Origin: Sphingomonas sanguinis | GTDB lineage: Bacteria; Pseudomonadota; Alphaproteobacteria; Sphingomonadales; Sphingomonadaceae | Direction of reading: 5' to 3' | NCBI RefSeq assembly: GCF_019297835.1 | Contig: NZ_CP079204.1 | Location: 1 to 64,000 of the forward strand | DNA: 64,000 bases | Part shown: piece after piece, positions 32,440 through 34,298 of the stretch | Layout: the number at the start of each line of letters is the position of its first letter | How positions within the stretch are numbered: position 1 is the first letter of the stretch | The notes under the pieces: generated by a model | Databases searched by the model: none | Seen by the model: only the letters and a program-made list of their open reading frames with translations | What the model was told of the DNA's origin: nothing | Position numbers and translations under genes: made by a program

Positions 32440-32503
32440 GGCGATGGATTTCCGCCGGGCCATTCGGTCGAACCGCCCTCGCAAGGGCCGATGATTCCTA
32501 CCA
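32440..32503 (+). ncRNA. Fluoride riboswitch (crcB motif)
   Basis: The + strand reads GGCGATGGATTTCCGCC (32440-32456), then AACCGCCCTCGCAAGGGC (32471-32488) and CGATGATTCCTACC. These are the conserved blocks of the crcB RNA: GGCGAUG...CCGCC hairpin, AAC, a GCCC/GGGC stem, and GAUG..UCCUAC at the 3' end. A 14-base insertion (GGGCCATTCGGTCG, 32457-32470) sits between the first stem and AAC. The loop GGA can pair with UCC at the 3' end to form the pseudoknot, although one U.U mismatch weakens it. It is 28 bases upstream of a CLC gene, as in known fluoride operons. Confidence 0.8.
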
Positions 32504-32530
32504 GGCGCCGCAAGGCAGCAAGGAGGAATC

Positions 32531-33889
32531 GTGCGCGCGACATTTCGCAATCTCTATGACCAGTTCAACATGGCAGCGTTCATTCGCGATCGCCGCACCC
32601 ATGCCACGTCGGTACTGCGGTGGGCTTTGATCCTGGTCCCGATGGCCGCAGCGGTGGGAACGCTCTGCGCGGCCTTCCTGCGGAGCCTCGACGCCGTAAC
32701 CCGGCTTCGCTTCGCCTTTCCCTGGCTGCTCTACCTGCTGCCGATCGGCGGGTTCGTGGTCGGACTGCTCTACCATCTGACAGGGCGCTCGGTCGAAGGC
32801 GGCAACAACCTCATCGTCGAGCAAATCCACGAACCGGGGGGCGGCGTGCCGCTGCGCATGGCTCCGCTCATCTTCTTCGGCACGGTCGTGACACATCTGT
32901 TCGGGGGATCGGCGGGACGTGAAGGCACCGCCGTGCAGTTGGGCGGCAGTCTTGCCAGCGGGTTTGGACGCGCGCTCAGATTGGATGCGGAAGCGACACG
33001 CACCCTCCTTATGACCGGGATCGCGGCTGGGTTCGGCGCGGTCTTCGGGACGCCGATTGCGGGCGCGGTCTTTGCACTGGAGGTGCTGGCGATCGGTCGG
33101 GTCGAGTATCGCGCGCTGGTGCCATGCCTGGTCGCGGCGCTGGTCGGTGACTGGACCTGTCTTGCCTGGGGCATTCATCACGGCGTCTACCATGTCGATG
33201 CGCTGGTGCCGGTCGACGCGCTGCTCGTCGCCAAGGCCGGTGTCGCCGGCATTGCCTTCGGTCTGACCGGGCTGACCTTTGCCGAGGCCAATCACGCGCT
33301 GGGCGGATGGTTGAAGCGCGTGATCCCCTATGGCCCACTACGACCCGTTATCGGCGGGCTGGCCGTGATTGCGCTGGTCTGGCTGCTCGGAACCCGCGAC
33401 TATCTTGGCCTGGGTACGCTCGCCGCGACACCGGACAGCCTGACCATCGCCAGCTTCTTTGGTCCCGATACGCACTCGTGGAGCTGGGCGCTGAAGCTGC
33501 TCTTTACCGTCGTGACCCTGAGCGCGGGCTTCAAGGGGGGCGAGGTCACGCCGCTGTTCTTTATCGGCGCGGCGCTCGGCAATGCGCTCGCGCCGATGTT
33601 CGGAGTACCGTCGGGGCTATTCGCAGCGATCGGCTTCGTCGCGCTGTTCGCGGGCGCGGCCAACACACCGCTGGCTTGCACGTTCATGGGGATCGAGTTG
33701 TTCGGCGCGGCCTATGCGGTGCCGATCGCAGTCGCGTGCTTCGTCGCCTACCTCTGCTCAGGCCACAACGGCATCTACCTGTCGCAGCGCGTCGCTGTGC
33801 CAAAGGTACCTGCCGCACACCTCACACCCGACGCGACCCTGCGCGATGCCCGCACGCACCGCGCTTCTCGCCGGCGCACGCGCGCCTGA
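32531..33889 (+). CDS. CLC-family antiporter, probable fluoride/proton (CLC-F type)
   Basis: 452 residues from GTG 32531, behind a perfect AGGAGG. About ten hydrophobic segments of the CLC fold. The gating glutamate lies in GGSAGREGTAVQLGG (E131). The usual anion-binding GSGIP loop is absent and GGNNLIVEQIHEP (from residue 90) stands in its place, so the chloride-coordinating serine is missing, as in the fluoride-specific CLC-F branch. FKGGEVTPLFFIGAALG and GFVALFAGAANTPLACTFMG complete the second half. The fluoride riboswitch in its leader and the DUF190 gene behind it support export of fluoride from the cytoplasm. Automated labels would call it a voltage-gated chloride channel. Confidence 0.82.
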   Translation: MRATFRNLYDQFNMAAFIRDRRTHATSVLRWALILVPMAAAVGTLCAAFLRSLDAVTRLRFAFPWLLYLLPIGGFVVGLLYHLTGRSVEGGNNLIVEQIHEPGGGVPLRMAPLIFFGTVVTHLFGGSAGREGTAVQLGGSLASGFGRALRLDAEATRTLLMTGIAAGFGAVFGTPIAGAVFALEVLAIGRVEYRALVPCLVAALVGDWTCLAWGIHHGVYHVDALVPVDALLVAKAGVAGIAFGLTGLTFAEANHALGGWLKRVIPYGPLRPVIGGLAVIALVWLLGTRDYLGLGTLAATPDSLTIASFFGPDTHSWSWALKLLFTVVTLSAGFKGGEVTPLFFIGAALGNALAPMFGVPSGLFAAIGFVALFAGAANTPLACTFMGIELFGAAYAVPIAVACFVAYLCSGHNGIYLSQRVAVPKVPAAHLTPDATLRDARTHRASRRRTRA

Positions 33890-33914
33890 TCCTGTTTCCT
33901 GTCGAAAGCCCGTC

Positions 33915-34298
33915 ATGCCCAATCGTTTCACCGTCCATCACCGCGAAGTCGGGATGCTGCGCATCTATCTGAAACCGTCCGACAAGATCGGCCCGCGTCG
34001 CTTCTGGGGGGCAAAGCCGCTCTATCGCGAGCTGATTCGCACCGCGAAGGCGGACGGCATCATCAACGCCGTCGCGCAAAATACCCATTACGGCTTCAGC
34101 AATCACGAACCGATCCGGGAGAACGGCTCGGAAATTGCCGATCCGCATCTGACGATCTGTGTCGAACTGGTCGGCGATCGCGATCAGCTCGACCTCTTCT
34201 GTCGCCGGCATGGAGATCTGATCGGCGACAAGGTGATCGTCTACAAACGACTGGAGCATTGGACTATCACGCGCAAAACTGAGCTAACCAGAGCCTGA
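33915..34298 (+). CDS. DUF190 family PII-like protein
   Basis: 127 residues from the ATG at 33915 (26 bases after the CLC stop). MLRIYLKPSDKIGPRRFWGA, YRELIRTAKADGIINAV and ENGSEIADPHLTICVELVGD match DUF190, a family with a PII-like ferredoxin fold that is frequently encoded beside or fused to fluoride exporters (CrcB/Fluc). It probably regulates or senses in the fluoride response. Shares the CLC transcript and thus the riboswitch. Confidence 0.82.
   Translation: MPNRFTVHHREVGMLRIYLKPSDKIGPRRFWGAKPLYRELIRTAKADGIINAVAQNTHYGFSNHEPIRENGSEIADPHLTICVELVGDRDQLDLFCRRHGDLIGDKVIVYKRLEHWTITRKTELTRA

Follow-up and report, generated by a model that had tools for sequence, protein, structure and literature searches.

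A riboswitch-led fluoride-resistance operon in Sphingomonas sanguinis, with a CLC-F-type antiporter and a DUF190 protein as its suggested partner

Fluoride export by CLC-F antiporters under riboswitch control is already known. In the available part of one review, the CLC-F proteins are recognized by the signatures GNNLI/GMGLI, GREGT/V, and GEVTP, the protein of Enterococcus casseliflavus is listed as a solved CLC-F, and CLC-F and Fluc are described as usually mutually exclusive, with both found in ca. 3% of strains (PMC11139923). The accessible text of another study names EriC-F of Pseudomonas syringae as a fluoride transporter (PMC5533749). Here, we describe a locus of this kind in Sphingomonas sanguinis, found within a stretch of 64,000 nucleotides (the window; contig NZ_CP079204.1, positions 1 to 64,000), in which a riboswitch aptamer is followed by a CLC-F-type antiporter gene and a gene of the DUF190 family. 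That this is a fluoride-resistance operon of a known kind, made of an RNA sensor, a CLC-F antiporter, and DUF190, seems to us nearly certain. A function for DUF190 would be the new part. We hold with good confidence the complete explanation, in which operon, switch, exporter, and DUF190 partner are taken together. An original prediction, made from the sequence alone, had placed the operon at 32440-34298, and these outer coordinates fit the features found.

The aptamer and the CLC-F-type antiporter

When the whole window was analyzed with cmscan, two Rfam matches were obtained, one of them the fluoride riboswitch aptamer RF01734 (32431-32507, forward strand, E value of 3e-8). The original prediction had recognized blocks of the crcB fluoride RNA in this leader, and the covariance model places the RNA there with 42.0 bits, above the gathering cut-off of 34. 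RF01734 also exceeded its cut-off in 19 of 20 sampled related CLC loci, the remaining one (L008) having a base change in its aptamer, and was found in all 15 loci of another set; in L189 it precedes eno, upstream of CLC. A second, divergent fluoride riboswitch was seen upstream of the CLC operon in L083 (2677-2748), L085 (2662-2733), and L086 (2666-2730, minus strand), and the Sphingomonas plasmid p150 (L193, 3992-4526) has a riboswitch before a broken CLC gene with arsenic genes adjoining.

The first gene (32531-33889, forward strand) begins with GTG, has its stop at 33889, and encodes 452 amino acids that match the Pfam family Voltage_CLC (PF00654) with 238.9 bits. As had been foreseen, its product would receive the label of a voltage-gated chloride channel. 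This favors the rival view of a plain chloride/proton antiporter preceded by a sequence that only resembles a riboswitch, as do the NCBIfam models matching the protein, all below their cut-offs, which are ClcB- and ClcA-like. However, residues 30 to 421 aligned with the solved CLC-F 6d0j at 228.4 bits, compared to 45.7 bits for the best ClcA entry, and most related CLC genes have RF01734 beside them. The protein also has the three CLC-F signatures (GNNLI, GREGT, and GEVTP), and its loop reads EGGNNLI without GSGIP, the very replacement that had been noticed at the outset. We compared these motifs in 35 listed homologues, 23 of them with at least 47% identity and 12 with 28 to 32%. A GNNLI motif, intact or slightly altered (to GNNLV in L141, to GNNLL in L190 and L191), together with GREGT or GREGS, was found in 23/23 of the former, while GNNLI in the selectivity loop was missing from 12/12 of the latter. 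A chloride-type CLC was rejected on these bit scores and motifs and is very improbable. The protein is thus, by scores and motifs, of the CLC-F type, and would expel F- in exchange for H+ as expected of its family. With RF01734, the CLC-F scores, and the CLC-F signatures all in agreement, the early suggestion that riboswitch, loop, and DUF190 point jointly to fluoride export is well supported. Apart from this, tandem CLC-DUF190 pairs were seen in L027 and L036, where the second CLC is ca. 73% identical to that of the window.

Both exporter types occur in the genome, where CrcB is encoded on the chromosome (93.9 bits) and the CLC operon is present twice. The idea that CLC takes the place of CrcB therefore holds within the operon and not for the genome as a whole. 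Given the second operon copy and the CrcB, the operon is an added, horizontally acquired fluoride capacity.

A candidate translational switch in the leader

The leader forms a compact candidate translational fluoride switch, with only 23 nucleotides between the aptamer and the GTG. We take the pseudoknot register from the known aptamer structure, assuming that the loop strand GGAUUU (32446-32451, forward strand) pairs with 32493-32498. In this register, five of the six pairs are possible in the window aptamer. To put the leader in context, we aligned 38 rows, comprising 37 of the 42 distinct leaders (among 81) and one plasmid leader. The fourth pseudoknot pair was mismatched in all 38 (U.U in 36, including the window, and A.C in 2), where the Rfam consensus of RF01734 has G and C.

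The strand AUGAUUCCU (32491-32499, forward strand) could have two roles, in the pseudoknot or as an anti-Shine-Dalgarno sequence. In the minimum-free-energy fold of 32484-32537, this strand and the next CC pair with the region 32521-32532 (forward strand), which begins with the Shine-Dalgarno sequence AGGAGG (32521-32526) and ends at the second base of GUG, forming 11 pairs. The 54-nucleotide segment, picked after the complementarity had been noticed, has a free energy of -26.4 kcal/mol (z score of -4.33, 0/200 shuffles equally stable); in a longer leader the same fold appeared and was less remarkable (z score of -1.77, 11/200 shuffles as good). Over the 37 distinct leader rows, 98.2% of the cells of a 9-pair helix were standard pairs, a value reached by 1/500 shuffles, and sliding the helix by one to three columns lowered it to 34 to 77%. 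A two-sided change from U-A to C-G at one helix pair was found in both Methylobacterium leaders and is probably a single event; the count of pairs with two-sided changes was matched by 57/500 shuffles and that of cells by none of the 500. One helix pair was broken in each of L021, L034, L050, L052, L078, and L086. The helix nucleotide with the two-sided change is also the fourth pseudoknot base. We infer that, in the aligned group, the switching strand tracks its Shine-Dalgarno partner and gives up one pairing in the pseudoknot in return, a loss that may set the fluoride threshold.

Given that the 3' strand of the aptamer is complementary to the ribosome-binding site and the start codon, we consider a translational ON switch likely, the helix being computed and the switching deduced from it. 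Without fluoride, this strand would sequester the Shine-Dalgarno sequence and the start, so that the first gene is not translated; when fluoride is present together with Mg, the strand would be pulled into the aptamer pseudoknot, leaving the ribosome-binding site accessible. The fluoride riboswitch of P. syringae acts on translation. Nevertheless, the platform is not class-wide, since terminator-like hairpins, GC rich and followed by U runs, were seen by eye in the leaders L087, L089, L090, L092, L111, and L113, and in the fusion loci L186 to L188 (see below) the start codon lies ca. 90 to 100 nucleotides past the aptamer. These hairpins, along with the statement in the available part of the review that the riboswitch upregulates transcription (PMC11139923), speak for action on transcription, by termination or Rho. 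In the window, though, a scan of 32300-34700 revealed no terminator-like site behind the aptamer, the only one detected being at 32317-32329 (shuffles average 1.9), and both the short distance to the GTG and the stable helix over the Shine-Dalgarno sequence argue against a transcriptional switch, which we consider unlikely here.

On the 5' side, adjoining the aptamer, a promoter-like TTGACC and CATATG separated by 17 nucleotides (32402-32430, forward strand) were noticed by eye, and TTGAC with a CATA-like hexamer was seen again, also by eye, in related leaders. The call is weak because a scan for consensus promoters found no promoter-like site at 32402-32430.

DUF190 beside, fused to, and away from exporters

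As originally described, a DUF190 gene follows the CLC gene (33915-34298, forward strand, 127 amino acids; PF02641, 36.8 bits versus a curated cut-off of 23.4). In two plasmid copies of the surrounding mobile unit (see below), RefSeq places its start at the equivalent of the ATG at 33846, with an overlap of 44 nucleotides with the end of CLC, and translation of the one may thus be coupled to that of the other. Modeled as a single chain, the protein was closest to DUF190 structures and then, less closely, to cPII and SbtB, and its predicted fold is PII-like.

To see which genes accompany DUF190, a class-level sample of 289 genomes was used, 24 of which had a match (26 genes, 12 strong at >100 bits or CLC-linked and 14 weak). 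Among the 12, CrcB was directly upstream of seven, three were next to CLC-F or shared an open frame with it (two of these being the copies of the S. sanguinis genome itself), one sits at a contig end that cuts off its context, and one follows RF01734 and a gene resembling, by eye, an Na+/H+ antiporter, with a divergent CrcB nearby. The 14 weak matches (21.2 to 32.3 bits) had no exporter within 1.5 kb. When CrcB-DUF190 loci were scanned for RNA, RF01734 was found in L161 and L162 and was not above its cut-off in L115, L117, L121, L158, L159, and L160. In L118 and L089 (G056), where RF01734 precedes such an antiporter-like gene and CrcB is divergent, the DUF190 that comes next is CrcB-type.

In plasmids of Agrobacterium, Sinorhizobium, and Roseomonas, CLC and DUF190 are joined in single frames of 605, 605, and 622 amino acids, with CLC at residues 63 to 408, DUF190 within 499 to 591, and RF01734 ahead of each. 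When the C-terminal part of one such fusion was used as the query, 241 proteins were retrieved, with both Pfam domains in 116 of the 120 listed clusters; the length rule of this search leaves out stand-alone DUF190 proteins, so the result indicates that fusions are numerous and gives no measure of the proportion of DUF190 in fused form. The CLC-F/DUF190 fusion occurs in many Rhizobiaceae, and some sources call these proteins "ClcA/PII-like signaling protein." In a model of the fusion, the linker (414 to 479) had predicted local distance difference test (pLDDT) values of <50, and the model thus gives no firm placement of the domains.

In a tree of 36 DUF190 proteins, the 18 that are CLC linked or fused were split from the 18 others with a branch support of 100/100. 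Some rows, mostly L190a and L190b, have very long branches, and for this reason their placement rests on profile scores. Two profiles, one for each of the CLC-linked and CrcB-linked types, assigned DUF190 to the type of the neighboring exporter in 24/24 cases when each was left out in turn. For held-out DUF190 directly behind an exporter, the type was right in 9/9 (six behind CLC and three behind CrcB). Both results are aided by relatedness inside each group. Five more that are not directly behind an exporter were all CrcB-type by score. In plasmids of Comamonas and Paraburkholderia the order is CLC, CLC-type DUF190, CrcB, and CrcB-type DUF190. In a P. syringae plasmid, the DUF190 behind CLC is CLC-type (20.6 versus 7.0 bits) and two further DUF190 are CrcB-type, even though CrcB was not detected in that stretch.

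The fusion, the exporter-specific subfamilies, and a DUF190 of its own for each of two unrelated exporters make a testable case, and these patterns in sequence suggest a dedicated role for DUF190 as partner of the fluoride exporter. The second gene would provide a PII-like-fold DUF190 of the CLC-F-linked subfamily. Its most likely role is that of a regulatory or stabilizing subunit attached to the antiporter from the cytoplasm, and the fused domain of Rhizobiaceae would do likewise within a single chain. We consider it more probable than not that DUF190 acts directly on the exporter; that it gates the exporter is a more tentative idea. Equally speculative is the broader view that DUF190 includes exporter regulators, PII-like proteins of a CLC-F type and a CrcB/Fluc type that might dock on the cytoplasmic side and gate or stabilize the exporter on binding a ligand (nucleotide or fluoride). 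As part of it, a CLC-F-type DUF190 could perhaps have become the fused C-terminal domain in Rhizobiaceae, in the corresponding place to that of the CBS domains in other CLC proteins.

Several findings weigh against our explanation. As already mentioned, the genome also has CrcB. When the best 80 of 248 CLC relatives were kept, DUF190 was intact (in one piece of at least 100 amino acids with no stop) in 36 loci, incomplete or disrupted in 18, and missing from the other 26, and it must be regarded as accessory, being intact in only 36/80. Many DUF190 genes also lie far from fluoride genes in a phylum-level sample (398 genomes, 97 with a PF02641 match). Among 28 loci newly fetched from it, CrcB was within 1.5 kb in six and neither CrcB nor CLC was present in 22, some of them cut by contig ends; 19 of these 22 belong to one family. 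RF01734 was absent from the 20 of these 28 loci that were scanned, 19 without an exporter and one with CrcB. The proposal that every DUF190 is a fluoride protein was rejected on the basis of these 22 loci and the 14 weak class matches with no exporter nearby.

Alternatively, DUF190 could serve in the response to fluoride stress on its own, as UspA or enolase would, having no contact with the exporter. Its frequent absence or breakage beside CLC-F and its occurrence away from exporters would fit such a role, and the stress genes eno and uspA are common in fluoride operons. This is countered by the fusion to the C terminus of CLC-F, by the exporter-specific subfamilies, and by the presence in one operon of two different DUF190s, one after each exporter. 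We consider the independent role less probable than direct action on the exporter. A literature search of open-licence papers retrieved no report of DUF190 as a PII-like partner of fluoride exporters. If the partner role is true, DUF190 gains a function and fluoride exporters a PII-like partner, which would change how fluoride tolerance is viewed and engineered, e.g., in organofluorine-degrading bacteria.

Two further observations concern DUF190. In many Sphingomonas loci (L030 to L035, L037, L042, L045 to L048, and L082), it is truncated or split over frames after an intact CLC-F, which suggests repeated decay. The one-family group (L164 to L185 except L166, L176, and L179) has no exporter within 1.5 kb and tRNA genes near some members.

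The mobile unit and the closest known systems

The operon lies at the end of a 10.8-kb unit (23525-34318) that stops just past DUF190. The same two ends were found on the plasmids NZ_CP065669, NZ_CP101723, and NZ_CP065714 (97.9%), and a second copy is located on the genome's own chromosome (C1:2871475-2882366, L004), 97.66% identical over a 10,897-column alignment. The identity to this chromosomal copy is patchy, dropping to ca. 90 to 91% at 27,500-28,500 from close to 100% over the rest. When 24 closely related loci were compared with the window, homology ended at 34310-34323 in 23 of them, and the bases beyond varied among many related loci. The leader of 152 nucleotides was the same as that of the window in 20/80 loci. 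The shared ends, differing flanks, and identical leaders point to recent horizontal spread, and the copies portray a unit with fixed ends that moves between plasmids and chromosome. Similar GTTCCC-containing sequences are present at both ends. In the two plasmid copies examined there was no annotated transposase within the unit, and a recombinase gene was found just beyond its left end. Along with the fluoride operon, the cargo includes sulfite-oxidase-like genes, a TDT transporter, LysR, MgtC, an ECF sigma factor with its anti-sigma factor, a beta-propeller protein, and DUF305. Elsewhere in the window, an ALIL frameshift pseudoknot (RF01497, 37334-37450, minus strand, 110.2 bits) lies within an IS3-type transposase.

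Among the described systems, the CLC-F of E. casseliflavus (6d0j) resembles the antiporter throughout the 228.4-bit alignment of residues 30 to 421, in which GREG and GEVTP are found. It differs in the loop ahead of the selectivity region, and the matched chain (421 residues) is without DUF190. For the DUF190 protein itself, the closest known counterparts are the DUF190 proteins TM0021 (1o51) and PH1503 (2dcl) and the PII-like cPII and SbtB. The six-gene fluoride resistance operon of Enterobacter cloacae FRM is similar as a riboswitch-controlled, multigene system on a mobile island, but consists of ppaC, uspA, eno, gpmA, crcB, and orf5249; in the accessible text, "DUF" does not appear and EriC/CLC is mentioned only as the exporter of others (PMC5533749). 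The same arrangement as in S. sanguinis, RF01734 followed by CLC and a CLC-type DUF190, is found in P. syringae plasmid pPs0170, where eno, ppa, and two DUF190 genes of the CrcB type are present in addition.
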